A stretch of 22,476 nucleotides of DNA from positions 1 to 22,476 of the IMG/VR virus record IMGVR_UViG_3300047562_003017; one strand, given 5' to 3'. Each line of letters starts with the position of its first letter. The first letter of the stretch is position 1. Position numbers and translations under genes: made by a program. Below are positions 1 through 16,018 of this stretch, in pieces. The stretch comes from a virus. A model generated the notes under the pieces. The model did no database searches. It worked only from the letters and a program-made list of their open reading frames with translations, and had not been told where the DNA came from.

Positions 1-3000
1 CTTTCAACCATGTGTATGCGCCAACAGTTTCTGTTAGTTGGTCATTGACAACATTGTCTGCACCAACCGTACCAGAACGATATGCAAGTCCGTTAAACAC
101 AGCGTTGAAGTTCGAACCAGTCAACACGTCACGTTTTACAGCATCAATGATGTAACCAGTGTCGCGTGAGCACTTATCTGCATCATATGTGAAGTAAGTG
201 TTTGCAAGATATGCAACAACTTCTTGTGCAAGGAAGTCACGGTTTTTCTGTAGTTGATTGAATGCGTTAACTTCATCAGTATTACCATGAAGGACTGCAA
301 CCGCATTTTCCGCTACACGAACAAGAGTGTGTACACCACCAGAACCGATGCCAACATTAACTTGAATTGTGTTGACATCTGGAACCCCTGTAATTGTCAA
401 TGGAGTTCTGTATGGTGGATCAGATGGACGTGGGTGTGAAAGTTCGATCAACCCGTTATCTGAATTACAAGTGAATGTAAAGGAACCTGGCATCAACTCT
501 ACACGATCACCAGCAAGCAATCCATGGTTCGGAATTGTTATGGAGAACACTCCAGTAGCTGGTACGTAAGAACCACCAGTCGGTGTTTTGAATTCTGCAT
601 AAGATGCGGGATCGCTATAGACGATAACGTCATCACGGATGCAATTTGGTTTTGCACTTACAAATGTGTGTGCACCAGTGTAACCACCAGCGTTACCAAC
701 ATTAATAGTAAATGTTGTTTCACTTGCAGACTTGATCTTAATAGGTTTCTTGTTGAATGGGTCTGTCGCACGAGGATGTGTAATTTCGATAATTGCACCA
801 TTCGCTGCGGCACAAGAGAACGTCATGCTCTCTGGTTCCAATTCAACATAAGAACCAACCGCAAGATTGTGTACCCCAATGGTAACAACCATATCACCCG
901 TTACTGGGTCATATACTGCAGTTGTTGGAGTATATGTATTCTTGCGTACTTCATTATAGACTGAAACTGCGTCTTCGTCAACACTATAGAACGTATGAGT
1001 ACCAGTATATCCGCCTGCAGGGCCAGGATTTACTGTAATAGTTGTTGCATTTACCGCAGTGATTTCAAGTGGTGTCTTATAAGCTGGGTCAGTACGTCTT
1101 GGGTGAGCGATAATCTGATTGTTTGCACCACACTCAAATCTAAATGATTCAGGTGCAATCAAAATCTTATCATCTGTTGTTAGGTTGTGTACACCAAGAG
1201 TGATAACCATTTCACCAGTTACTGGGTTGTATGTCGCAGTGGTTGGTGTGTATGCACGACCAGAACCTTTCATGATGTGAATGATTTCATCAAATGCTGC
1301 GCCTGCAGTTTGAATTGCAGAACTGTCGTGAACGAGTTGTTTTACTGCGTTGTGTTGTGCAGAAACAAATGTGTGTGCACCAGCATAACCGCCTGCATCG
1401 CCACCGTTAAATGTAATGGTTGTTGTGTTTGCAGCAGTCACAGGAATTGGTTTATCAAACAATGGGTCGCTGACACGTGGGTGAGAAATTTCAACCGTGG
1501 CAGAAGATGTTGCATTAACGCAAGAGAATGTGATACCCTCTTTAGCAAGTTTAATTGCGTCACCAACCTGAATGTTGTGATTAGGAATAGTTAGAATAGT
1601 TTCACCAGTCAGAGGATCGTATGATGCATCTGTAGGTGTGTATTCCGCACTTGTCATGTCAGAGACAAGAGACTTCAACTCCTTAACCGCACCAACTGTT
1701 TCTGGCAACTGATCACCAACAACTTCACTTGCAGTACCGAAGTAATATCCAACACCAGTTTGTACTGAGTTGAAGTTTGTTCCCAATACCATGTCTTGCT
1801 GAACAGCTGGAAGAATGTGTTTTTGAATGTCACGTGCACACTTTTCACTGTCGTAGATGAAATAATTGTTGTCAATCCATCCCATCATGTAGTCTTGGAT
1901 GTACTTCTTGTTAGCCTGTAGTTGTTTACGTGCGTTTCTCTTATCTACAGAAATCGAAGGATCATCACTGAATCTAATACCAGTTCCTACAACTTGAATT
2001 GAATTTTCTAGTGTTCTTTGATAAGCGTGAACACCGTTATATCCGCCCGCGTCACCAGCATTAAATGTGATAGTGTACGGTGTTACAGATAGAACCTGAG
2101 TTGCGTTTTTGAACAGAGGATCAGAAGGACGTGGGTGTGAAATTTCCACAGTCTCAAGAGTTGCAGTATTGGTGCAGCTGTATGTGATACCGAATGGTGA
2201 AATTTCAATAAGATCACCAGCTTCGATATTGTGCAATACATCGAATGTAACAACTGTTACACCAGTTGTTGGATCGTATGTTGACCCAATTGGAGTGTAT
2301 GAATTTTCTGCAAGTCTAACCGCCTCGGCGTCAGCGCTTACAAAGAAGTGAATTCCTGTATAACCCTTGGCTGTACCAACCTGAACAACAATCGTAGTGT
2401 CAGTCACTTCAAGAATAGGAAGTGCTTTCTGATAGGCAGGGTCTGTTGTTCTTGGGTGAACGATTTGTTGTTTCGGAATACCACATTCGAAAGTGAAACT
2501 TTCTGTTTCAAGAACAATTTCTTGCCCTTCCACTAGACGGTGCTTGCCAATTTCGATTTCCATGATACCAGAAATTGGATCATATTCTGCAAAAGTTGGT
2601 GTATAAGTCTTGCGGTTTTCTTCCAACGCATCGATGATGTTATCAAAAGCACGATCTGCACGAATAGAACCGATTGCAGAGTTTTCATCGATGATTTCGT
2701 TTGTTTGTTCTTTTAGTCTCTTATATGCGGCAATCGTTTCATCACGTTGGTTGTTGATAACCTTTGCAGCTGCATTCATGTAATATGCATTACCTGCAGT
2801 AACTGAGTTGTAGTTGGTATCCAACAACATATCACGTGCAACTGCAGGAAGAATGTATTCCTGAGTGTCACGGCGGCACGTCGCACTGTTATATGCGAAG
2901 AATTCGTCGTTGTCTTCGATCCAGTCGATCAACTCATCTTGAATAAACGAACGATTGTCTTGAAGTTGCTTTCTTGCAGCAGTATATGCATTAACAACTT

Positions 3001-3410
3001 CAGTGTTTCCAACTTCTGTCCAGATAATTGGGTTCGCATATTCTTCTCCGTTTTCAAGAATGTTCAACAATTCGTCATAAGAAGTGTTTGCACGCTCAAG
3101 GATTTCTGTGTTTGCGTTACCAAAGATTGTTCCCAAACGACCCTGTAGATAACGGTTTGCACCCGCTGTTTCTTCGAGCTGTTCGCCAGGAACTACGTAA
3201 GAGATTGGTGAACGGTATGTGATACCACTCAAGCGGCCCCAATAGTTAGAACCAGTTTGAATATCTTCTGACAGTTTGTCAAGGATGATACCAGTGTCAC
3301 GATAACACTTCTCTGAGTCATATCCTTGATATCCAAGACCACCACTTGTCGTATTAGACGTTAGGTAATCAACCATATCGTCAATGATATTGTTTGCATT
3401 TAGGAGAATT
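1..3410 (-). repeat. Fibre repeat module B, four copies of about 90 residues
   Basis: Four helical-looking copies lie at about 3130-3410, 2707-2997, 1665-1955 and 1-275 (the last is cut by the window edge). The shared plan is QLQxNxxxIQD, a tyrosine-rich (Y/F)xYDxEKCxRD segment, I(L/I)xAVxxD, then (G/D)(S/T)N(F/Y)NxVxxGxxYY and QLxETVGAxxxLK. The first copy is the most divergent, with YLTSNTTSGGLGYQGYDSEKC at its start. The central Cys-x-Arg-Asp is present in all four. The order along the protein is B B A A B A A A A B. Confidence 0.85.
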
Positions 3411-5722
3411 GTGTCACCGAATGCAGTATTTCCACCCGCAGTAGGGTCAATAACTGCCGATGTATCTCTAGGAGCATAGAAGGTTGTTGTTCCCTTCGCT
3501 CTCATAGAAATGTCACCAAACTGTGTACCAGAGTTGTTAAGTGTAAGTTGTCCACCGTTCAATGCATAGAACGCACAACGGGTAAAGATTGACAATGAAC
3601 CGATACCGTTAATACCCGCACCATCTCTGGCGACATAGCCGAGACCGTTTTGAGTACGAGGTGTGAAACCGAATGTCAATACGTAAGTATAGAGTGAGTC
3701 TGGGTCAAGAACACGGCGGTCTGCAAGCACACATCCACCACCACGACCCACAAGCGGGTTCGGGAAGTCATCGATACCAATAACCGCAATGTTACCTGTA
3801 CCACCAGATTCGGAAATGATTGTGTCACCTACGTTTATTTCACCCTTTAGGTTACGAACATAGATACGATTATCTGACGCAACGTCTTGGTCCCAAGAAA
3901 CGTAACCCTGTGCACCAGAACCAAATACAATTTCATCACCTTCTGCAAAGGTGCCTGTGTGTCCTGGCGCCATGAAGATTTCACGACCAAGGTCGGCAAG
4001 AGTACCTTTGGAGTTAAATGGTTGTAGTGGTGGTTCAACATCCGCACGAAGGAAGTTCGACAACTGGGATGAGTCACGAATATATGGTGAACGTCTTAGT
4101 TTTGCGCCTGGACGATACGCAATCGCGAAACCGCCTTCTGGGTAGTCAAAGTTATCTACTTTCCAATTAGTGTAAGAGAAACCTTGTACGTAACAACCAG
4201 AACCAACTAGAATTGCGTTATTGAATTCGTAGCCAGGCAACGCTTCGATAACTGTTGCGTACTGTCCAGAAGTTGAAGTCAATGAACAGTCGTCTGGAAG
4301 CGCAACGCCACCCTTGGTATAGTAAGTGCCTGGACCACAAGAAATGTGAACTGCGTTGTTCACGTCATTACGGGAATAGACACCGCCTGCTTTTTCAAGA
4401 GCAAGTTCTGCAGCGCGTTCTAGTGTTCTTACGGGTTGTAAGATTGTGCCAGGGTTTCTGTCGTCACCACTTGAAGCTTCAACATAAACCTTCAACGCGG
4501 TTCTTGTTGTTCTGGAGATTTCATCAAAGAATTGACGATAAGTTATCTTCTCAGTTTCACCAGTTTTTACATTCTTGATTGCAAAATATGCATTTTCATC
4601 GATACGAGGTTCAAACTCGTTTGCGATATCCATATTGAAGTCAACAAGTTCTGGACGATTAATTCTTGAGTCATTAATGTCTGCATTTTTGACCTCACCA
4701 CCTTCGAAGGTAGACTGAGAAATGCCTGTGTTGGACATAGAGGAAGAAGTAATTTTCGCATCTTGTAGAGAAATATCTGAGAGTTCACCAGTGAAAGTGC
4801 TGTTTGCAATAACAGAATCTACAATTAGGCCAGTATCAATAGTTGTATTTGTGAATACGTTATTGTTACCAGTCCCATCAGAGAAGTCTGAATTTGTGAT
4901 TGTAAGGTTATTTGCGGTTGAATCGTAGATTTCACCGTTTCTGAATACGGAAACATCAATCTCAAAGTTTGTTGCTACTACGTTATTTGCAGTACCATCA
5001 TTAAACTGTGAATTGGTGATAATTAAATTGTTCGCAGTAGAATCACCAATGAAACCGTCTGTAAATCTTGACTGATCAATTTCAAAATCGTATGCAAAGA
5101 CATTATTTGCGGTACCGTCATTAAACTCTGAGTTCGAAATAATTAAGTTGTTTGCAAACGAATCTGTAATAATACCATTAGCAAAGGTAGATTCAGTTAT
5201 TGCTATGTTGTTTGCAGTTGAGTCTGAAATACTACCATTCGAAAATGTAGATTCGGTGATTGTTATGTTGTTTGCGGTAGAATCTGTGATGACGCTATCA
5301 TCAATAGTGGAGTTGATCAGAGTAACGTTGTTACCTGATACTGTTTCCATCGTACCGAAGTTGAATTCTGAATTAGTGATTACGAGATTGTTCGCAACGG
5401 AATCGTATAGTTCGCCGTCATAAAATACGGAATCTTCGATATCTGCGCGATTAATATCTGTGTCATTGACCGATCCACGATTAAACTCGTTATCGTTCAT
5501 GACGTTGTCTCTGATTAGGTTATCAAAGATCGTCGTGCCACTGATGGAACCACCAGTGATTGTAATTCTATCGAAAATTTCGTACTGAATGGCCTGAACG
5601 AGTTCTCTTCTCGTAATGTTTTTAGTACCGTCATCGCCTTGTACTAGGTTAACGATGACAAATAAGTCTTCCGTCCTAGTATTAGCGCCGGTAATGGAAC
5701 CTAATTCAGAAATTTTTGACAT
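1..5722 (-). CDS. Giant modular tail-fibre-like protein, 3' end outside window
   Basis: An uninterrupted frame starts at ATG 5722 (MSKISELGSITG...) and is still open at base 1, giving at least 1907 residues. I see these regions in order: an N-terminal ~45-residue segment resembling phage fibre attachment ends; about ten 20-residue tandem repeats (residues ~88-308); a segment with VYVEASSGDDRNPGT and HISCGPGTY (~415-465), typical of the start of right-handed beta-helix fibres; a middle domain; then two interleaved repeat modules from residue ~770 onwards. The start has a weak AAGG ribosome site and an AATAAATA octamer 28 nt upstream. The likely role is a peripheral fibre or host-contact structure on the virion. 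This is inferred from modular repeats, size and position after baseplate genes; no receptor-binding or enzymatic motif was recognised. The C terminus, where a binding tip or chaperone would usually be, is not visible. Confidence 0.88.
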   Translation of the reverse strand, partial: MSKISELGSITGANTRTEDLFVIVNLVQGDDGTKNITRRELVQAIQYEIFDRITITGGSISGTTIFDNLIRDNVMNDNEFNRGSVNDTDINRADIEDSVFYDGELYDSVANNLVITNSEFNFGTMETVSGNNVTLINSTIDDSVITDSTANNITITESTFSNGSISDSTANNIAITESTFANGIITDSFANNLIISNSEFNDGTANNVFAYDFEIDQSRFTDGFIGDSTANNLIITNSQFNDGTANNVVATNFEIDVSVFRNGEIYDSTANNLTITNSDFSDGTGNNNVFTNTTIDTGLIVDSVIANSTFTGELSDISLQDAKITSSSMSNTGISQSTFEGGEVKNADINDSRINRPELVDFNMDIANEFEPRIDENAYFAIKNVKTGETEKITYRQFFDEISRTTRTALKVYVEASSGDDRNPGTILQPVRTLERAAELALEKAGGVYSRNDVNNAVHISCGPGTYYTKGGVALPDDCSLTSTSGQYATVIEALPGYEFNNAILVGSGCYVQGFSYTNWKVDNFDYPEGGFAIAYRPGAKLRRSPYIRDSSQLSNFLRADVEPPLQPFNSKGTLADLGREIFMAPGHTGTFAEGDEIVFGSGAQGYVSWDQDVASDNRIYVRNLKGEINVGDTIISESGGTGNIAVIGIDDFPNPLVGRGGGCVLADRRVLDPDSLYTYVLTFGFTPRTQNGLGYVARDGAGINGIGSLSIFTRCAFYALNGGQLTLNNSGTQFGDISMRAKGTTTFYAPRDTSAVIDPTAGGNTAFGDTILLNANNIIDDMVDYLTSNTTSGGLGYQGYDSEKCYRDTGIILDKLSEDIQTGSNYWGRLSGITYRSPISYVVPGEQLEETAGANRYLQGRLGTIFGNANTEILERANTSYDELLNILENGEEYANPIIWTEVGNTEVVNAYTAARKQLQDNRSFIQDELIDWIEDNDEFFAYNSATCRRDTQEYILPAVARDMLLDTNYNSVTAGNAYYMNAAAKVINNQRDETIAAYKRLKEQTNEIIDENSAIGSIRADRAFDNIIDALEENRKTYTPTFAEYDPISGIMEIEIGKHRLVEGQEIVLETESFTFECGIPKQQIVHPRTTDPAYQKALPILEVTDTTIVVQVGTAKGYTGIHFFVSADAEAVRLAENSYTPIGSTYDPTTGVTVVTFDVLHNIEAGDLIEISPFGITYSCTNTATLETVEISHPRPSDPLFKNATQVLSVTPYTITFNAGDAGGYNGVHAYQRTLENSIQVVGTGIRFSDDPSISVDKRNARKQLQANKKYIQDYMMGWIDNNYFIYDSEKCARDIQKHILPAVQQDMVLGTNFNSVQTGVGYYFGTASEVVGDQLPETVGAVKELKSLVSDMTSAEYTPTDASYDPLTGETILTIPNHNIQVGDAIKLAKEGITFSCVNATSSATVEISHPRVSDPLFDKPIPVTAANTTTITFNGGDAGGYAGAHTFVSAQHNAVKQLVHDSSAIQTAGAAFDEIIHIMKGSGRAYTPTTATYNPVTGEMVITLGVHNLTTDDKILIAPESFRFECGANNQIIAHPRRTDPAYKTPLEITAVNATTITVNPGPAGGYTGTHTFYSVDEDAVSVYNEVRKNTYTPTTAVYDPVTGDMVVTIGVHNLAVGSYVELEPESMTFSCAAANGAIIEITHPRATDPFNKKPIKIKSASETTFTINVGNAGGYTGAHTFVSAKPNCIRDDVIVYSDPASYAEFKTPTGGSYVPATGVFSITIPNHGLLAGDRVELMPGSFTFTCNSDNGLIELSHPRPSDPPYRTPLTITGVPDVNTIQVNVGIGSGGVHTLVRVAENAVAVLHGNTDEVNAFNQLQKNRDFLAQEVVAYLANTYFTYDADKCSRDTGYIIDAVKRDVLTGSNFNAVFNGLAYRSGTVGADNVVNDQLTETVGAYTWLK
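316..2605 (-). repeat. Fibre repeat module A, six copies of about 92 residues
   Basis: Six copies of a beta-rich module occur in the giant fibre, at approximately 2330-2605, 2022-2299, 1361-1642, 983-1252, 653-934 and 316-592. Each follows the same plan: YTPT..YDP.TG, then a His in an (N/V)HN(L/I)..GD turn, a Cys in the TF(S/E)C strand, the motif HPR..DP, an ITxxNxGxAGGY strand and a final G-x-H-T-F. Copy 1 is the first translated. Copies 1-2 and 3-6 form two runs separated by one module B. I do not recognise a named domain; the modules probably extend the fibre shaft or form side domains. Confidence 0.88.
4861..5461 (-). repeat. 60-bp / 20-residue tandem repeats, about ten units
   Basis: Within the giant fibre gene the translation repeats with an exact 20-residue period. 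Example units begin STANNLTITNSDFSDG, STANNITITESTFSNG, STANNIAITESTFANG and SFANNLIISNSEFNDG. The core is A-N-N-(L/I)-x-I-x-(N/E)-S-x-F-x-(D/N)-G. Units alternate in part with a more divergent type (VFAYDFEIDQSRFTDG, VVATNFEIDVSVFRNG). Two or three degenerate, slightly shortened units continue down to about 4680. Alternating hydrophobic residues with Asn and Gly at turns fit stacked rungs of a beta-helix or beta-solenoid; that fold is inferred. Confidence 0.85.
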
Positions 5723-5749
5723 TATAGTCTACCTTGTAATGTTTCTTTT

Positions 5750-5757
5750 TATTTATT
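5750..5757 (-). promoter_or_regulatory. Candidate late promoter before giant fibre gene
   Basis: The minus strand reads AATAAATA, seven of eight bases of the T4 late promoter octamer TATAAATA, in the 54-nt gap before the giant fibre gene and 28 nt from its ATG. The T4-type octamer is established for T4-like late genes; its use here is inferred from position and from two similar sites in the window. Confidence 0.5.
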
Positions 5758-5776
5758 ACAGACTTATCATATCAAA

Positions 5777-6745
5777 TCAAAATTCATCCAAGTGATTTGC
5801 ATCATCTGAATAAATTTTTTCACCGTTTTCCAACCGATCTACTTTTTCACTCAATTCCTTTATAGCCTGTATCAATAATGGTATTATGTTATCGTAACGG
5901 ACGGCTTTGTGGCCTTCTTCGTTTATCTCGAAAGTGATATTTGGGAGAACTTCTTCCACTTCTTGGGCTACAACACCCGCCACTCTTTCGTTAGGCCTGT
6001 CGATATAGTTAAAAGTGTATCCTCCAATTGATTTTACTTTATCTAAAGCATTATCAATTAGTTCAAGGTTTTCTTTCAATCTAATATCAGAAATATTCCA
6101 GTTCGTTGCAACGTCACCAGCAAACAAACCGTCTCCAGTGACTGTTAGGTTCCCATTGATAGTAATGTCGTCGTCAAAAGAAAGACCTGCAACCCCACTT
6201 AAACTTCCAGAAAATGTGATGTTGTTTGCAAAAAGATCATCACACGTCACGTCATTGTCGAATGTAGCGTTGTTGCCAGTGATATTTTCTTCTAAAGCAA
6301 TGTTAAAGGTTGACACCGTACCAGAAGGAGAAATAGAAAACTTTCTTTCTCCAGTACCAGTGTCAATAATGAATTCAGCATTGACGGTATCTTCCATACC
6401 AATGTCCCAAGATATCACTCCATCCGTATATCTTGTTTTACCACCAGCTGATGGGAAACGGAAAGTTGCACAGATTCCGTTGGACAACGCATTATGGATT
6501 GTTGGTGAACCGAATGTTACGCTACCACCATTGGTGTCTGCTTCGATAAAATCAGTCGCGACATTAGCGGTAATGAGAGAAGCGTTAAAGTTACCAACAA
6601 GTGTTGCGTTACCAATAGTCGTGTCACCACCAGCCGAAGCGGTCATCGCCTCAGAACGGATGATACCTGTTAATTCGTTTGTTTTGTCAAACCAATTTTG
6701 AAAGGTTTGAGTTACTACGATATTGGCTATTGACGGTTTTGCCAT
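5777..6745 (-). CDS. Tail fibre protein with S74 intramolecular chaperone domain
   Basis: This 322-residue protein has a beta-rich body (roughly residues 35-215, with repeated N.T..GN and DD.T.NG.LTVTGDG strands) and a C-terminal Peptidase_S74 / intramolecular chaperone domain. The domain is identified by SDIRLKENLELI, GYTFNY, VAGVVAQEVEEVLP and RYDNIIPLLIQAIKEL, ending in a short coiled coil. In this family the C-terminal chaperone trimerises the fibre and then cuts itself off just before the Ser of the S-D-x-R-x-K motif; here that is Ser219, with Lys224 as partner, leaving a mature fibre of about 218 residues. Its start overlaps the stop of the preceding 65-residue gene (TAATG), so the two are translationally coupled. 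Likely a short fibre or fibre-tip component of the baseplate region; its attachment partner is not identifiable. Confidence 0.88.
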   Translation of the reverse strand: MAKPSIANIVVTQTFQNWFDKTNELTGIIRSEAMTASAGGDTTIGNATLVGNFNASLITANVATDFIEADTNGGSVTFGSPTIHNALSNGICATFRFPSAGGKTRYTDGVISWDIGMEDTVNAEFIIDTGTGERKFSISPSGTVSTFNIALEENITGNNATFDNDVTCDDLFANNITFSGSLSGVAGLSFDDDITINGNLTVTGDGLFAGDVATNWNISDIRLKENLELIDNALDKVKSIGGYTFNYIDRPNERVAGVVAQEVEEVLPNITFEINEEGHKAVRYDNIIPLLIQAIKELSEKVDRLENGEKIYSDDANHLDEF

Positions 6746-6942
6746 TACTTATTTTCCAACTGTTTTATTTTTTCGCACATTATACGCAAAGTCATTTGAA
6801 TTTCATTGACATCAGACTGAAGTTTGTCTATCTTTCTATAATACATTCTTTCCGTTTTATATTTAGTCAGCGCAGCAGCATCTGTGTTCAATAGAGCACC
6901 AGAATGTTGATCCCTCTTCAGTGTGTCAACTAACTTTGTCAT
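6745..6942 (-). CDS. Small coiled-coil protein, unknown function
   Basis: This 65-residue protein begins MTKLVDTLKRDQHSGALLNTD and has a C-terminal half with heptad-spaced hydrophobics (IDKLQSDVNEIQMTLRIM and following), suggesting a coiled coil. It overlaps the end of the 1818-residue gene by 4 nt (ATGA) and the following fibre start by 1 nt (TAATG), so it is coupled on both sides. That arrangement, with a GAGG site upstream, supports it being a real gene. I do not recognise a family. From position it could be a fibre adaptor, a short bundle protein in the baseplate, or a fibre assembly factor. Confidence 0.7.
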   Translation of the reverse strand: MTKLVDTLKRDQHSGALLNTDAAALTKYKTERMYYRKIDKLQSDVNEIQMTLRIMCEKIKQLENK

Positions 6943-9900
6943 GTCAATGCAATACCTCTATAATCTTTAACGATTGGTACGTTGTAGACATTTGGTGACA
7001 ACAATTCAATTCTTACAGCAAATCTTCTGAAAGTTTTATAAGTTGCACCAGCCCCACCGCGTGTCGTATATCTAAACACACCAGAACCATCTTTGTTTGC
7101 GGATGAAATTCGATATCTAAATTCACGATAATCGTCCAAGTTCAAAGAAGACGAATATGTTTCAACGCCTTCAAACTTTTCTAATTCGATCCAATCCAAC
7201 TCATCGAAAGACTGCACGTCAAAAGTATTTTGCGCACGAATATAAGTTTTAATATCCGTTCCAATCGGTCTGTATGCAGAAAGAATTAAGTTAAAGTCTT
7301 CAGCGTCAAAGTCTTCTGCTAATTCTACTATCTTCGAAATGAAATTCGCAGTTTCGCCTGGTGTGTTTGTTATGTCATATTTATAGGCCAAAAGTTTACT
7401 TGTTTCAATATCAATAAACGGAGAAGAAACCAAGTTTCCACCGTTCTCCATGTTTACTTTAATCTCAAATTTCAAACTACCAGAAAGGTTATTTGTTTTA
7501 CTATAAAGAATGACCCCACCTTTGTTGAAGTTGTTATTGTCATTAAACTTCATAGGCATGTTATAAGTCGAACCAAGGTTTGCAGGCGATATAAACGTAC
7601 CAGAAAGATCAGTTCTTGTCTTACTGTTATTTACACGTTGGATAAATGGTTGTACGTAACTCAAATTAATGTTATCAATACTTACTATGTCTGCAGTAGC
7701 TCTAGAATCTGATCCAGTGATAGTGGACCCCACACTGAATACTTTACCACTTCTAACACTACTATTGTCAAGATACATAATTTCTGGTTCTATGATATCA
7801 TAGTAAGAAAGTTCTCCAGCTACAACTGGAGTACCAGTCGCATTACTGTACGTTTGTGTTGCTGGTTTATTCGTTGTGATGGTATCTGCAGTAACAGCCG
7901 TAACACGGAAAATGTCTAGGTTATCTGTATTTGCAGTTTCATTAACTTTGATGAAATCACCAACAGAGTAGACCGTGTCGAAATTCGCACCACTTGTTCT
8001 GTTAATTGTTGTATTTGCAGATGCAATGCCGACAACTTGTGCAGTACCTGCATCTTGATATACAACTTCACCACGGTTGAATTGACCAGTGATATCTGTT
8101 ACTGTAAAGAATTCGTGGTCTTTGTTAGTGAGTACGAGTTCACCTTGGTTAGCATTGAAAACGTGACGGTACAGTGTGAACTTAACGTCTTCGTCTTGGT
8201 ATGATTGCCACGCACGGTTGTTTGTTGACGTGAAGAGAACACCATCACCCCAGTCTTGGGTGATAGGTCTTCCTTGTGTCGCGCCGGGTGTCAAATCATT
8301 ACCACCAACCTTAGATGTGAAAATCAAGTAATCTGGATCATTTGCATCAGGCATCACGACAAAACAATATTCCTTTTCCAATTCCAATTGAACTGGAGCA
8401 GGGAATTCAATTGTAGTTGCAACACTTGCATCGTCCGAAATGTTAACTTGAGAAGCAAGAAGGTGAACTTTACCGAATGGGATTATTGTCGATGCTGGAT
8501 AACCATTAATAACTTCACGCAACATAACTGTTACGCCGTTTACACCACCGCCGCCAACAAGTGTGGAAGATGATTTACGCTTGAAATACAAATCCAGTTT
8601 TGAAATCATTACGGAGTTACTTCCCTGACCCATACCTCTCTTAAGGAAGAAAGTCTGTGCAAGTGGGTCTGGATTGCGCCCGCGATCATTGTCATTATCA
8701 TCTCTAGGTGGTGGAGGCGGACGGAACGTAACACTTCGATCACTTCTTGAAGAAGTTGTAATAGAAGTTTCCGGCATACGAGTAGACAAACTTGACTTCT
8801 CGACACTGAAGTTGTATGCACGGTAAGTAATTTTCGATTTAGATGTAGCTGCGCTACCAATTGTATCATAATTGTCGGTATCCGCGATTTCTAATACACG
8901 ATCACCAACAAAGAAAGTATTTGGTGGCAATCTGAACACCGCACGAAGAATACCATTTTCATCTGATAGAACTGCAGCGCCAAATGCCCCATTACGTTCT
9001 ACAGAAGTGACTGAGTTCGAAAGTGTGCCTGGACATACGTTATTATTAACCGATATTCTATCAAAGAAGAAATAATGACGTGTATTTGGTCTCAAACCTG
9101 ATACATAAATCTTAATGTCACGAGGGGACATGTAAGGTTGGAACTGTATGTTAGACACAAAGTCACCAACTCTATTTGCTTCAGCACCTGATGTGACTTG
9201 CAACGATCCTATAGTATCAGTGAATGTTACAGTACCGCCATTCGCACGGGCACGGCGAATTTGCTCTTGCACGGCCGCACTGAATTCATTAGTGCTTAAT
9301 CTTGCATCCGTCAAAGGAATAAATCTTTGAATGGATTCTGCGAAATCTACGAAAGGCTGCGTAAAGTCTATTTCTACTGGGTTGGTAGTAGTGTCATAAG
9401 TTGCATCGAACTCTGGACTAATACTTGCCTGACCAGCGTAATTATAGAAATTACTTACGCAGTTTCTAAAAGAAGTTGCATATGGTTGACTGATTACTTC
9501 AGCGTGTGCATTTCTGCTTAGAGTGCCCACAACAGGAACTTCTGTCAAGGACGGTGCAGGGAATACGGTAGAGTTTGTTGAAGTGAGATACTTAAGATCA
9601 AGGTCAAAGGTTCTCACCGAAGGCGTCATAACCTTTTTATTGAAATGCACAGCAGCATTATACTTTGGATCTCTTACGTTGGCAAGAGACAAGTTGTTAA
9701 AAGGATCAACAATAAATCCGTTTTTAAATCTTGTCAACCCGTTTTCGTCGAGAACTGTAAGGTTATTTGTCTCTTGTTCCAATTGGTTCAATGAAGTGTA
9801 ATACACAAGTCTATCGATTTTTTCTTCGATGCTTCTGATATCCTTCATTGTATAACGTCTCGTGCCTTTTGGTTTTGCACGTACTGCGTATTCTCTCTTA

Positions 9901-12395
9901 CCTTGTTCATTAGCTTCCTTAGGTGAAAGAACAGGAGCGCCTGGAACAAAGATTTCAGAAACAACCAATTGGTCGTCTCCAAGTAGAGGTGGTTTTGGAC
10001 TTCTTTCCTCTTTACCTTGGATGTAATTGAATGTACCATATGAGTCGATAGTGATTACGTCATAACGTGGCAAGTAATATTCAATATCACCCGTTGCAAA
10101 TTGTTGAACCGCAGGAAGTGTGTACGTACCTGTAAAGGTTGGAGGTTGACTATCAATGGTGTTTTGGATCGCCACAGTCATAGTAGGAGCAGTCGCAGGA
10201 TTAGTTGCGGAATAACTCATTGTCGCTACTTTGTCAGCCTGTGGTCTAAAATCTAGACAATCTCTCAAGTTAAATTTGTTTCCAGATTCTGAAACATAAA
10301 CTGGAATATCTTGTGGGTCAACTCCAGTGTAGGAATTGATTGTGTAAAAACTTTCACTTCCTACAGGAACACTCGTTTCAAAAACTTTAATTTGGATTGT
10401 CAACTGTTCATTGCCTGGGCGAGGTCTGCCTTGAATGTACTCAATTGACGAAAGACCATAATACTGATCTTTCTGATTTGGATTTAGACGGAAACTGTTT
10501 AGGTAACTCTTACCTGTACTATCAACAATAGAAACAATCTGGTAAACATCTGGGAAACCCAAAGAGAACCTAGTTCTTGTTGTCACGTGATCAAGTTTCA
10601 AGTAAGTTGTTCTAGGAGTTTTTTGACGAACCGTTGCATCGATTGCACGATAGTCATAGTAACAGATCACCGTGACACCGTCAGAGACCGCGCCAGGCTG
10701 CAAGCTTACTGTCAAACGACTATTCCCCAGAGAAGTCGCAGTACCCGTTACTGTAACACGTGTGCCAGTCGAAGTGATAACCAGAATGTTGTGTTGTGTC
10801 AATGCGAAGTCCGTGCCAGGACTTGCAGAAATTTCAAACTGGTTACTATTTACTGTAAAACTTCCTTGTCCTCTAATAGGTACGTTTAGATCGTCTTCTT
10901 TAATTTCGTAGAGGTAATTCATACCTGTGTCGAAAATAAGGGACCTCTTGTCGGTACCCTTAAGAGTGTTTCCAATAGTGATTTCGCCAGTTGTTGCACC
11001 ATCAATTTTTGCGACATCTGAGAAGTCTTTACCTGCATTTAATTCAACGCCCCAAATGTAGGCGCGTGTAGATGTTAAGTTTGAGACAAAACACTCACCA
11101 ATTTTTGCATTCGATGCGTCTAGAAGGTCTTGTGTAGAAGAAAGGTCGATATCGATGTGACCACTGAAAGCAGTTACATCAACATAGTTACCGTATTCAA
11201 AACTGATTGGTTGCGAAGTCTCGATTTCAGTAGTTGTTGGTGCTGCAATCTCGAAAGCTTGTGTGCCAATACTTTCTGCACGATAACCTTTTACATATGC
11301 TACACCCTCACCTATTAACGCTTCCAATACAGCAGTGTTTGCAGAATTTCTTTCTACAGTTACAGGGAAATCTCTAATGAAATAGTTACCAGACTCTTCG
11401 TATGTGCGTCTTGCCGTAACATCTCCCAAAACATTGTACTGTGATACATCTCGTATTTGTACAGCATTTCCGTTTTGATAACGAATTAGTGTGAAGAATG
11501 ACGAATCAGCTTTAGCTTCATCTGGTGTTAATTTTGTGAGAATAGGAACCATCTGTAGACGATCTGCGCCAGGCGCATTCTCGTTTTTAGACCCATTGGC
11601 ATTATCATACAAAGAACTGTCTTGTAGATAATTAACCAAGTTTTCCTGAATTCTAAAACCTACGTTTTGATCTGTAGGTACGTTGCTGTATTTTTCTACA
11701 ACAAGGATTTGTTCTTCAACAAAAAGGAAATGTCCTTTTTGGAAAACGATACCAGGCGAAACAATTATACCAAAAGAGTCCCCTACTGGGACTAGAGAAT
11801 TTGGCGCTACGTTAATCGAATCCACACCCTGTTCAACAGGAGTTAGTGGTTCTGTGGTTCCAGCTTTGTATTGGTATTTGTCAATACGAATAGTTTCACC
11901 CGCATCGAACTGTTTCTTAGAACCAGTCGTGTTCAAATAACGTATGAAAAATGTGTTTAGGTTTGGCGGTCTAGTTACGAAACCATTAGACGCAGAAATT
12001 ACTTGGGCACTAACTTGAGACTGAGTACCATACAAGACATAGACAATGTCTACTTCAGTTTCTACACCACCTGTTGTATCAGTTGTCGTAGTTCTTCTAC
12101 TGATGAAAGCCTCAGGACTAAAGTAAGTCGTGCCGTCTGCTTGCGCTTCACGATTGACCACTTTTACATATTTTAGGTCATCTAAACTCGTAAAAGTACA
12201 CCCTTTAATGATGCTACCTTCTTTGAAGATATTATCCCCAAACTGTTCTACCTGATTTTGTAGAATGGTTTGTAATTGCGTGAGTTCTCGAGCCTGGACT
12301 GCAAACCCTGGCTTGAATAATACCCGATAGAATTGATTTTCTTGATCAAAATCATCGAAGTATGGTGCAACATTTAAGTCTGTGTTAATAGGCAT
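6939..12395 (-). CDS. Giant virion structural protein, DUF4815-type N terminus
   Basis: This 1818-residue protein is the largest complete gene here. The N terminus (PYFDDFDQENQFYRVLFKPG followed by QARELTQLQTILQ) and a KGYRAE segment match what I recall of the DUF4815 family of structural proteins in T4-like marine phages. A mostly beta middle is followed near residue 1225 by a proline run (FRPPPPPRDDNDNDRGR), directly before DPLAQTFFL at about 1243. The part after it (SKLDLYFKRK, NGYPASTIIPFGKVHL, LELEKEYCFVV) resembles a widespread phage tail/baseplate beta domain. An AAGGA ribosome site lies in the 12-nt gap after the gp8-like gene, so the two are probably cotranscribed. A peripheral baseplate or fibre-base role is inferred from neighbours; no enzymatic motif was seen. 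Confidence 0.85.
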   Translation of the reverse strand: MPINTDLNVAPYFDDFDQENQFYRVLFKPGFAVQARELTQLQTILQNQVEQFGDNIFKEGSIIKGCTFTSLDDLKYVKVVNREAQADGTTYFSPEAFISRRTTTTDTTGGVETEVDIVYVLYGTQSQVSAQVISASNGFVTRPPNLNTFFIRYLNTTGSKKQFDAGETIRIDKYQYKAGTTEPLTPVEQGVDSINVAPNSLVPVGDSFGIIVSPGIVFQKGHFLFVEEQILVVEKYSNVPTDQNVGFRIQENLVNYLQDSSLYDNANGSKNENAPGADRLQMVPILTKLTPDEAKADSSFFTLIRYQNGNAVQIRDVSQYNVLGDVTARRTYEESGNYFIRDFPVTVERNSANTAVLEALIGEGVAYVKGYRAESIGTQAFEIAAPTTTEIETSQPISFEYGNYVDVTAFSGHIDIDLSSTQDLLDASNAKIGECFVSNLTSTRAYIWGVELNAGKDFSDVAKIDGATTGEITIGNTLKGTDKRSLIFDTGMNYLYEIKEDDLNVPIRGQGSFTVNSNQFEISASPGTDFALTQHNILVITSTGTRVTVTGTATSLGNSRLTVSLQPGAVSDGVTVICYYDYRAIDATVRQKTPRTTYLKLDHVTTRTRFSLGFPDVYQIVSIVDSTGKSYLNSFRLNPNQKDQYYGLSSIEYIQGRPRPGNEQLTIQIKVFETSVPVGSESFYTINSYTGVDPQDIPVYVSESGNKFNLRDCLDFRPQADKVATMSYSATNPATAPTMTVAIQNTIDSQPPTFTGTYTLPAVQQFATGDIEYYLPRYDVITIDSYGTFNYIQGKEERSPKPPLLGDDQLVVSEIFVPGAPVLSPKEANEQGKREYAVRAKPKGTRRYTMKDIRSIEEKIDRLVYYTSLNQLEQETNNLTVLDENGLTRFKNGFIVDPFNNLSLANVRDPKYNAAVHFNKKVMTPSVRTFDLDLKYLTSTNSTVFPAPSLTEVPVVGTLSRNAHAEVISQPYATSFRNCVSNFYNYAGQASISPEFDATYDTTTNPVEIDFTQPFVDFAESIQRFIPLTDARLSTNEFSAAVQEQIRRARANGGTVTFTDTIGSLQVTSGAEANRVGDFVSNIQFQPYMSPRDIKIYVSGLRPNTRHYFFFDRISVNNNVCPGTLSNSVTSVERNGAFGAAVLSDENGILRAVFRLPPNTFFVGDRVLEIADTDNYDTIGSAATSKSKITYRAYNFSVEKSSLSTRMPETSITTSSRSDRSVTFRPPPPPRDDNDNDRGRNPDPLAQTFFLKRGMGQGSNSVMISKLDLYFKRKSSSTLVGGGGVNGVTVMLREVINGYPASTIIPFGKVHLLASQVNISDDASVATTIEFPAPVQLELEKEYCFVVMPDANDPDYLIFTSKVGGNDLTPGATQGRPITQDWGDGVLFTSTNNRAWQSYQDEDVKFTLYRHVFNANQGELVLTNKDHEFFTVTDITGQFNRGEVVYQDAGTAQVVGIASANTTINRTSGANFDTVYSVGDFIKVNETANTDNLDIFRVTAVTADTITTNKPATQTYSNATGTPVVAGELSYYDIIEPEIMYLDNSSVRSGKVFSVGSTITGSDSRATADIVSIDNINLSYVQPFIQRVNNSKTRTDLSGTFISPANLGSTYNMPMKFNDNNNFNKGGVILYSKTNNLSGSLKFEIKVNMENGGNLVSSPFIDIETSKLLAYKYDITNTPGETANFISKIVELAEDFDAEDFNLILSAYRPIGTDIKTYIRAQNTFDVQSFDELDWIELEKFEGVETYSSSLNLDDYREFRYRISSANKDGSGVFRYTTRGGAGATYKTFRRFAVRIELLSPNVYNVPIVKDYRGIALT

Positions 12396-14140: not shown

Positions 14141-16018
14141 CTATCCCACACGTATTTTTCTACGTGGGTATTGTTGTTTTGTAGAAGAATAGTCGTTATA
14201 GTGAAAATTGTTTTTTACTGTAGAATTATATCTGGTTCTTGTGTTATTCGTTATGTAGTACGGAATAAACACACGTTTTGTGGTTGAACCATAAAGATCA
14301 CTCAAATCTGATCCACCATTTTGAAAATCATTTTCATCAATTCTATTCAAGGCAGAAGAACTGTACAATCTAGCTGAAGTGAAGTTTCCTGCTGTAGGTA
14401 CATTCGTCCAGTCAAAATAATTTTCACTTACTAAACATTCTTTAGCCGATTTCTGCATAAGATCAAGTAATTGTTGTTGAGTCGGATAATCACCACGTGT
14501 TTCGTAAAACCAATCTACAAACAAGGCTGCTGCGCCTGCAGTCCATGGTGCAGCACAACTGGTACCACTAAAATATCCCCATTCACCATCAGGCAAAATA
14601 AAAGTGGGGTAAGAGGTCCACGTGAACGCACCAAACCCCCATATGTCTATGTACTGTCCACGGTTGCTATAGTCGTCGCCAAGAGGGTTTCTGGTACTGT
14701 GTTGACATGCGCCAACAACGATTACATTTGAAGACGCACTTGTTCTACTTCTTGACGGATATTGCGTATATGGACCAGCTGATCCTGTTACAGGACTAAA
14801 CGTGTAACGACCATTTCCATCAACATTAAGATCGATATAATTTATTGTACTGTCAGTTACAATCGTTGTGTCCCATCTTGGATGATTGCGTTTGACGCCG
14901 ACGCCTCCGTTATTGCCTGCACTTTTAAAATGGTATATACTACCATCTGCGACATAACTCGCCAATGTCACATCAAACGTAGTGTCGAAGAAGTTATTGG
15001 GAATTGGTATGTACCATTTATCTGTGGAATCAAAAGGATCATTCAAAACCCTTGGAGCAATGCCTGCGTTAACGAATGCACTTAAGTTACTACCCCAACC
15101 GCCGCCAGGCCTGTTAGTTATTGTTTGGTTTCCTTGATCATCATACGATGTTATTTGTGCAATCTCGTCAACCCTAATTGCAATTTCGTGGTCAACTCCA
15201 CCATAACCCCACGAGCCAGTGGTTATAGTTGCATTTCGTCTTCCTGTCGCGGGATTGATAGGTTTGTTTTTGTGCCAGTTCAGAACGGCGTTGTACACAG
15301 AAGTTACACCATCACCAGAACCACCAATATAAATCACTCTAAGACTACTTACCTTGGCCCAACCGCAGATCAAACCGCCAGCTGCACTTAAAACGCCTAT
15401 CGCATGGTCTGAAAGATAATTTGTTCCGTTTGTGACTTGAAGGTTTGCAGACGCAAAAATAGAACCCCACAAGTTCCAGTCCATTTCAACAAAACGACTC
15501 GCAGCCGAATCATCCAATGCGTCTGGATGATTGACCCAAACGTCATTTGCAACTTCTGGAGTACCCGCTTCAATAGCTACAATATCAACGTATTGTCCTG
15601 CATAGTTTTGACTGATTGTTTGGTTTTCGAGATATGCGTCTTCACCACCGAAAGGTGGACCACCACCTTGGAAATATCCAATTGGGCCCGTATTAGCAGT
15701 TATTTCTTGGTCACTTGAGAGGAAAAACCCCGTGGATGCATATCTTGCACCCTCCAGTGAAACAGAATACCTTGTCAAATAATGTTTCGTCATTGACCTC
15801 GGAACAGGAGAGTCTTCAATCGGCATGTCTTCTTTTTCTACTGCAACGATGCGTTCGCATTTTTTTAGTTTTTCTGCTTCCTCTTCAGTCAGCATCATTG
15901 CAACAACACCATTCAATTGAGGAAGTTCATCCGCAATTTCCATACCGCAACAATCTTCTTCAAGAACATGACTTTGCATGTCCCCGGCGCATAGAACGAT
16001 GTTATATCTTTGTTTCAT
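14141..16018 (-). CDS. Subtilisin-like (S8) serine protease with I9-like prodomain
   Basis: This 625-residue protein has an N-terminal segment (residues 1 to ~65, with LNGVVAMMLTEEEAEKLKK and ERIVAVEKE) that looks like the I9 inhibitor/prodomain of subtilases. A subtilase domain follows: YVDIVAIEAGT (143-153) at the Asp position, SDHAIGVLSAAGG with His205, SAGNNGG with the oxyanion Asn369, and FSGTSCAAPWTAGAAAL with nucleophile Ser487. His, Asn and Ser are all in the expected order and motifs, but the residue aligned with catalytic Asp is Glu150. A ~110-residue C-terminal extension rich in Asn, Ser and Tyr follows. No signal peptide or membrane segment is seen, so it acts in the host cytoplasm or in the virion. 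It lies 3 nt after the gp10-like gene and among baseplate genes, which suggests a virion component or assembly protease; substrates are unknown. Confidence 0.85.
   Translation of the reverse strand: MKQRYNIVLCAGDMQSHVLEEDCCGMEIADELPQLNGVVAMMLTEEEAEKLKKCERIVAVEKEDMPIEDSPVPRSMTKHYLTRYSVSLEGARYASTGFFLSSDQEITANTGPIGYFQGGGPPFGGEDAYLENQTISQNYAGQYVDIVAIEAGTPEVANDVWVNHPDALDDSAASRFVEMDWNLWGSIFASANLQVTNGTNYLSDHAIGVLSAAGGLICGWAKVSSLRVIYIGGSGDGVTSVYNAVLNWHKNKPINPATGRRNATITTGSWGYGGVDHEIAIRVDEIAQITSYDDQGNQTITNRPGGGWGSNLSAFVNAGIAPRVLNDPFDSTDKWYIPIPNNFFDTTFDVTLASYVADGSIYHFKSAGNNGGVGVKRNHPRWDTTIVTDSTINYIDLNVDGNGRYTFSPVTGSAGPYTQYPSRSRTSASSNVIVVGACQHSTRNPLGDDYSNRGQYIDIWGFGAFTWTSYPTFILPDGEWGYFSGTSCAAPWTAGAAALFVDWFYETRGDYPTQQQLLDLMQKSAKECLVSENYFDWTNVPTAGNFTSARLYSSSALNRIDENDFQNGGSDLSDLYGSTTKRVFIPYYITNNTRTRYNSTVKNNFHYNDYSSTKQQYPRRKIRVG
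14145..14168 (-). other. Imperfect inverted repeat at the 3' end of the protease gene
   Basis: Arms CCCACGTA and TACGTGTGGG enclose a six-base A-rich loop on the minus strand; they pair over 8 bp with a 2-nt bulge. The repeat overlaps the last codons of the protease gene and ends just before its TAG stop. No U-run follows, so it is not a standard intrinsic terminator. It may stabilise an mRNA 3' end just upstream of the next promoter, or be chance. Confidence 0.3.

Follow-up and report, generated by a model that had tools for sequence, protein, structure and literature searches.

Our analysis suggests that the giant fibre encoded by this viral DNA is built on a tandem spine of B modules, which appear to be distant homologues of phycobiliproteins that keep a Cys-x-Arg-Asp (CxRD) motif, and that A modules sit in the loops of the B units as decorations. 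We consider this architecture probable. The role of bilin is rated apart. That the virion has a bilin-bearing, pigmented adsorption fibre is a tentative proposal that we lean somewhat against, and the heme oxygenase-bilin reductase cassette on which it draws is known from relatives, the window record being too short to reveal it. The window is the whole stretch of DNA analysed, a complete virus record of 22,476 bases.

The giant fibre gene and its neighbours

The fibre is encoded by the open reading frame P0001 (Table 1). Its frame contains no stop codon up to the window edge, and the fibres of complete relatives reach up to 4,182 aa, so roughly the first half of the protein lies within the window. 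The modules are therefore placed mid-protein, not in the C-terminal half of the fibre as the earlier note had it. P0001 matches the PHROG profiles phrog_701 (virion structural protein, E 6.1e-72) and phrog_5342 (tail fiber, E 5.3e-53), and the genes around it form a baseplate cluster (gp25, gp6, wedge, VrlC and S74). Both its profile matches and this cluster are those of a tail fibre or T4-like cyanophage virion structural protein. We infer that a T4-superfamily phage carries this product in its virion as a giant fibre linked to the baseplate. A DNA-level search for the fibre among phages gave no match. The nearest relatives of gp6 and VrlC are in Sinorhizobium phages, VrlC being 34% identical to its counterparts in phiN3 and phiM12. 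The host of the window phage is probably a marine alphaproteobacterium.

Two further features of this region were noticed. Residues 50-360 or so of P0001 contain N-terminal repeats of the type NNITITESTFSNG, which by their sequence probably form a beta-helix; a Pentapeptide_4 match to them is below the cut-off. Amid the baseplate genes lies a gene for a 625-aa subtilase-like protein (PF00082; window 14141-16018, minus strand), which matches the tail fiber family phrog_15006 and could conceivably be a protease carried as a virion component.

Two unrelated modules

Table 1. Positions of the fibre gene, its neighbours and its modules in the window, and loci of the bilin gene cassette in related phages. 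Module numbering by HMM follows the stop-to-stop ORF, which is P0001 numbering + 2.
Feature	Coordinates	Strand	Basis and remarks
Giant fibre ORF P0001	2..5722	-	1,907 aa visible, open at window edge
S74-chaperone tail protein, neighbour	5777..6745	-	PF13884 E 1.7e-14
VrlC/DUF4815 baseplate-region protein, neighbour	6939..12395	-	PF16075 E 2.3e-48
B1 core, CYRD	3167..3412	-	HMM B 76 bits; ORF residues 773-854
B2 core, CRRD	2735..2977	-	HMM; folded unit, allophycocyanin Z 14.4
A1	2318..2605	-	HMM; inserted after helix FDNIIDALEENRKT of B2 unit
A2	1997..2299	-	HMM
B3 core, CARD	1697..1933	-	HMM
A3	1343..1642	-	HMM; in B3 unit at B-HMM position 94/95, before helix AFDEIIHIMKGSGRA
A4	965..1252	-	HMM; after helix AFDEIIHIMKGSGRA
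A5	638..934	-	HMM
A6	299..586	-	HMM; then GNTDEVN and B4
B4 core, CSRD	26..265	-	HMM
HO-FDBR-gp59-gp32 loci	L119 8998-13499, L120, L121, L319, L311, L329-L331

A BLASTP self-comparison of P0001 gave no off-diagonal rows, and the module copies were established by anchors, HMMs and pairwise shuffles in its place. The earlier note had described six A and four B modules in the order BBAABAAAAB; the HMMs and the anchors both recovered exactly this arrangement, and the coordinates proposed for the module region fit. In pairwise alignments of the window copies (segments offset by 2 residues relative to P0001 numbering), all 15 A-A pairs reach z 19-50 with 33-52% identity (200 shuffles) and all six B-B pairs z 10-43 with 30-50% identity, whereas the 24 A-B pairs stay at z <= 1.0 (100 shuffles). 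Since every A-B pair is at chance, A and B are unrelated, which agrees with the same note. Shuffled ORFs from the window and 103 loci gave no match at iE <= 0.01 (best 2.4 for A and 0.98 for B). The CIRD at P0001 residue 1694 was rejected as a B copy; it sits in an A-A linker.

AF2 models (pLDDT mostly 80-90) bear out that A is beta-rich; the module measures about 96-101 aa and not 92 residues. Modelled B units are helical, and the conservation of their CxRD holds widely. Relatives were collected in two scans of viral contigs, which gave 35 loci through the fibre and 67 through the neighbouring VrlC gene, and sets of similar proteins were reduced to a total of 25, each with at least 7 modules, before spacing, flanks, motifs, A conservation and insertion sites were counted. 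Of the 280 B units whose matches cover HMM positions 25-45, 264 have CxRD and 268 have the Cys. The 12 units that lack the Cys are all the final copy of their fibre, and every one of them reads T[RY]RD; short fibres of 716-763 aa have this Cys-less copy alone. Cyanophage B copies keep C..D where it is covered, with the Arg relaxed in some units.

Module A has near-invariant residues of its own. In 141 full copies from 25 proteins, His22 (0.99), Cys41 (1.00) and His88 (0.99) stand out besides Gly13 and Pro53, and on this conservation a Cys/His/His metal site is possible. Module A also resembles a domain of the ubiquitin-activating enzyme E1, which we take to be the FCCH domain, with Z about 7-8 over about 80 residues, a level at which the likeness possibly reflects a common arrangement only; there is no functional link between the two.

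Module B resembles phycobiliproteins

The B2-A-A-B3 segment of the window was modelled with AF2 from a 131-row alignment (mean pLDDT 69), the B unit having pLDDT of only about 44-66 per block. The B2 unit, which makes up the first 118 residues of the model, is closest to allophycocyanin (Z 14.4, rmsd 1.9 A, 112 residues), a score to be read with the caveat that helical models may reach Z 13-14 through a common arrangement. Against solved structures, its 20 best rows (Z 11.7-14.4) comprised 19 phycobiliprotein or phycobilisome entries and one 'bacterial fluorescent protein'; the first unrelated helical row had Z 8.0. An AF2 model of a B-B tandem from the related fibre L003 has pLDDT 90.6 and pTM 0.82, and its best 50 rows are 49 phycobiliproteins and the same bacterial fluorescent protein (Z 10.9-12.0). 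Foldseek also ranked phycobiliproteins at the top, with probability up to 0.97 and nothing at E <= 0.001. In a viral structure library, the B fold was found in several cyanophage tail proteins as well.

Sequence comparisons point the same way. A profile of 73 B units gave nine matches among PDB chains at E <= 10, eight of them phycobiliproteins (best E 0.034), and in the PDB sequence alignments the CxRD of B falls on KCARD. In Pfam searches with the 73 units, PF00502 came first with 29 matches (best E 3.1e-4), and the next family matched four. A B unit of L003 scores 13.5 bits against PF00502, under the curated 22.2; the window B copies do not match this family at E <= 10, nor does P0001 match it, and a profile of the B-A-A-B segment returned two weak unrelated matches only from PDB sequences. 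In hhalign, B aligns with a profile of eight phycobiliproteins from cyanobacterial plasmids at 92.9% and a score of 46.9, while 100 column shuffles of the comparison gave at most 1.5% and 18.3. The CxRD of B lies opposite Cys84, Arg86 and Asp87 of the CpcA of L107, and at the level of sequence it coincides with the bilin-attachment motif. On these alignments and models we describe the B units as distant phycobiliprotein-type globins, the window copies not being filed as PF00502 members, and we infer that B shares an ancestor with phycobiliproteins and with bilin-binding globins more broadly.

Heme oxygenase and bilin reductase genes in related phages

Most of the contigs are fragments, and the gp32-containing ones are therefore the fair denominator for the cassette. 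Among 48 contigs of the clade, chosen for size, five have a strong gp32 match; bilin reductase is present in exactly those five, with heme oxygenase beside it in each, although the five are relatives and do not represent five independent events. Three extra gp32 matches (E about 1e-4) were dropped, as they lie inside a 1816-aa ORF that by its length is probably the VrlC gene. Three of the 31 contigs with a fibre or VrlC locus have bilin reductase and heme oxygenase side by side, and psbA was found in none of the 31. The gene order HO, FDBR, gp59, gp32 recurs in eight clade phage loci (Table 1), gp32 not being reached within L330.

Four of the five cassette contigs have CxRD units in their fibre (1, 9, 11 and 11), and the fifth, G029, has zero. 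In the Pelagibacter phage Mosig, the cassette adjoins neck genes and there is no B unit. Because G029 and Mosig have the cassette without a Cys-bearing B, there must be one or more other uses or partners for it. Of 22 contigs fetched through bilin reductase, most of which are short pieces, the 183-kb G063 alone contains B units. In the Prochlorococcus phage P-SSM4, pcyA is accompanied by no B unit at E <= 0.001. All 19 phage records that match bilin reductase are cyanophages except Mosig. No B unit was found in the heterotroph phages phiM12, Cr30, Melnitz-2, DLP6, RHph_I1_18 and OC.

One 3.6-Mb Rhodobacteraceae bin contains three different clade fibres (L320-L322), each with 11 CxRD units, and three HO-FDBR-gp59 loci are also present in it. 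This bin, which is weak host evidence, and the Sinorhizobium-phage gp6 and VrlC point to alphaproteobacterial hosts.

The conserved CxRD and the cassette together make bilin attachment to B plausible. Each of the roughly ten CxRD units would hold a bilin covalently, and the bilin would be supplied by the phage's heme oxygenase-bilin reductase pair and, in cyanophages, also by the host. The fold and the motif fit this reading, but G029 and Mosig uncouple the cassette from B, and our confidence in it is low accordingly. We give a nearly even chance to the alternative that B has the phycobiliprotein fold by descent and has lost bilin binding, the Cys, Arg and Asp being kept for folding or packing. 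It differs from our preferred explanation in the last, proposed step only, and the confidences in the two overlap. Loss would account for the Arg-Asp that is kept in the Cys-less last copy and for the relaxed Arg of some cyanophage units, and the uncoupling in G029 and Mosig also speaks for it. The last copy persists without the Cys, yet the 268 others all keep it, and they do so although the rows of alignment A3 share only 24-81% identity with its first row. This retention, and the CxRD units of the other four cassette contigs, argue against loss.

A modules lie in loops of the B units

The preferred reading of B as a spine draws on the distances between B units, measured over 255 B-B intervals in the 25 proteins. 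Without an A between them, the median spacing is 149 aa (IQR 139-161, n=177). In intervals with 1-7 A, the raw medians are 271.5, 348, 444.5, 556, 555, 659 and 767 aa, and after excision of A they become 166, 151, 156.5, 165, 165, 173 and 182.5 aa; some one-A intervals still measure up to 231 aa. Once the A copies are cut out, all 78 of these intervals are matched by a 136-position profile built from A-free B units. In addition, the helix FDEIIDILNNG of A-free linkers reappears as FDNIIDALEENRKT ahead of A and as AFDEIIHIMKGSGRA between copies of A. The collapse of the spacing on excision and these common linker segments argue that A lies inside the B unit.

The site of the first A on the B-HMM is at positions 113-131 in 34 of the 78 intervals, at 94 in 11 and at 96-111 in 13, with 20 unplaced. 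The alignment resumes at least 5 positions past the first A in 11/34, 11/11 and 4/13 of these groups, respectively. A single insertion site common to all A was looked for and not found. A full A may also lie inside another A, as in L020 and L028 (HMM 1-56, full A, 55-98) and in a second case in L020 (HMM 1-21, full A, 21-98). From these sequences, we favour a reading in which A is an insertion domain that occupies loops of the B unit and B forms a spine by repeating in tandem every 139-149 aa or so.

With A inserted in B loops, extra copies of A need not make the fibre longer, and the joint that recurs is the one between B and B. The row of B units would be the load-bearing spine of the fibre, whose length would depend chiefly on how many B units it has. 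The A domains would decorate the spine, plugged into B loops or another A, and perhaps make surface contact. The earlier note had instead taken A and B as alternating blocks in series, and had attributed fibre length and joints to the shuffling of both; the modules do vary, but length would come mainly from B and the joint is that of B with B. We consider unlikely a serial alternation of two independent blocks whose shuffling sets length and joints. Such a scheme fits the frequency of both modules and their varied order, but the spacing collapse and the common linker segments put A inside the B unit, and the loci examined include all-B fibres free of A but no all-A fibre.

Copy number and order vary among relatives

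At least nine distinct module orders occur among 21 complete long fibres, a count that merges two pairs differing by one weak match only, so that copy number and order differ between relatives as had been anticipated. At the fewest-A extreme, L024 and L025 have 9-10 B and zero A; at the other end is a series of 22 modules, BBABAB followed by 16 B. A scan with a single L024 B unit found six loci, mostly distant. In the close relatives L002 and L003, 18 of the 22 L002 modules are collinear orthologues with their best match in the same place. The other four (15B, 16A, 17B and 19A) have no positional partner in L003 or match better elsewhere there, and L002 has an extra A where L003 has none. On these alignments, modules are gained, lost and replaced against a background of mostly collinear descent, and the A copies in particular would have been gained, lost and replaced over time. 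The idea that the fibre evolves by duplication and shuffling is thus upheld for the exchange of the four L002 modules, but most modules were inherited in place.

The C-terminal tail of the fibre, ending in GRTGRIEGRPFTSSVRKLARRASNSR (L003 20597-21286 and relatives), is highly conserved, in contrast to the variable modules. Its conservation holds across eight aligned fibres, one short fibre included. A conserved tail with variable modules is the opposite of the usual variable fibre tip. In L019, the fibre is in two overlapping frames (3-4595 and 4498-7983), which reflects either a frameshift or an assembly error.

Discussion

Phycobiliproteins such as allophycocyanin, phycocyanin and phycoerythrin share with B a globin-type helical fold over about 110 residues, in predicted models of B, and the CxRD is in register with the bilin Cys; the sequence similarity is weak but first-ranked. 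B differs in occurring as tandem units within one giant virion protein, and its match begins near phycobiliprotein residue 30-41, the N-terminal helices of the latter, through which alpha and beta chains pair, being mostly unmatched. Least probable, and only slightly credible in our judgement, is that B is a generic helical bundle whose match reflects convergence and a chance CxRD: middling Z scores are common for helical models and the single-sequence Pfam matches are weak, or absent for the window copies, but Pfam and PDB sequence searches rank phycobiliproteins first without structure, the hhalign score with the motif masked is 26.8, above every shuffle (maximum 18.3; probability down to 18.9%), and the Cys, Arg, Asp, Asn8 and Gly50 of B are all aligned in register with phycobiliproteins.

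The architectures usually given for tail fibres are beta-helices, triple beta-spirals and coiled coils. If our preferred reading is true, phycobiliprotein-type globins strung into a spine, with beta domains nested in them, would be another way to build a fibre. A full-text literature search, covering titles and abstract openings, found no report of a phycobiliprotein fold in a phage fibre. A bilin-bearing fibre, if true, would also explain bilin synthesis by phages of non-photosynthetic bacteria.

Other relatives of phycobiliproteins are known outside photosynthesis. According to the accessible text of one study, bilin biosynthesis-associated globins (BBAGs) are phycobiliprotein paralogues of heterotrophic bacteria; two kinds have CXRD, in non-photosynthetic bacteria they accompany heme oxygenase and a bilin reductase, and they take up bilin without a lyase (PMC10151467). 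As far as that text describes them, BBAGs are cellular proteins encoded beside bilin genes, whereas the B units are repeats of a virion protein far from the cassette; the two are likened here by description. In aquatic phages, heme oxygenase adjoins bilin reductase (hemO-pcyX/pcyA), and alphaproteobacterial hosts were proposed for some of these phages (PMC11480375, accessible text). The purpose of the phage genes was called enigmatic there, and binding to BBAGs was floated (PMC11480375). The accessible text of that study names no phage-encoded bilin acceptor, and the B units offer a candidate acceptor of this kind for the bilins of aquatic phages.

Among cyanophages, the giant structural proteins (phrog_701) of S-RIM2, ACG-2014h and Sf-CH1b contain both A and B modules. 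They differ from P0001 in having fewer, more divergent B units and different surrounding genes. In S-CREM2, the long tail fiber ORF85 (about 14.9 kb) is present in virions, where, in the accessible text of the study, it is represented by 286 unique peptides (PMC10665884). Likened by that description, ORF85 is perhaps a giant cyanophage analogue of P0001.
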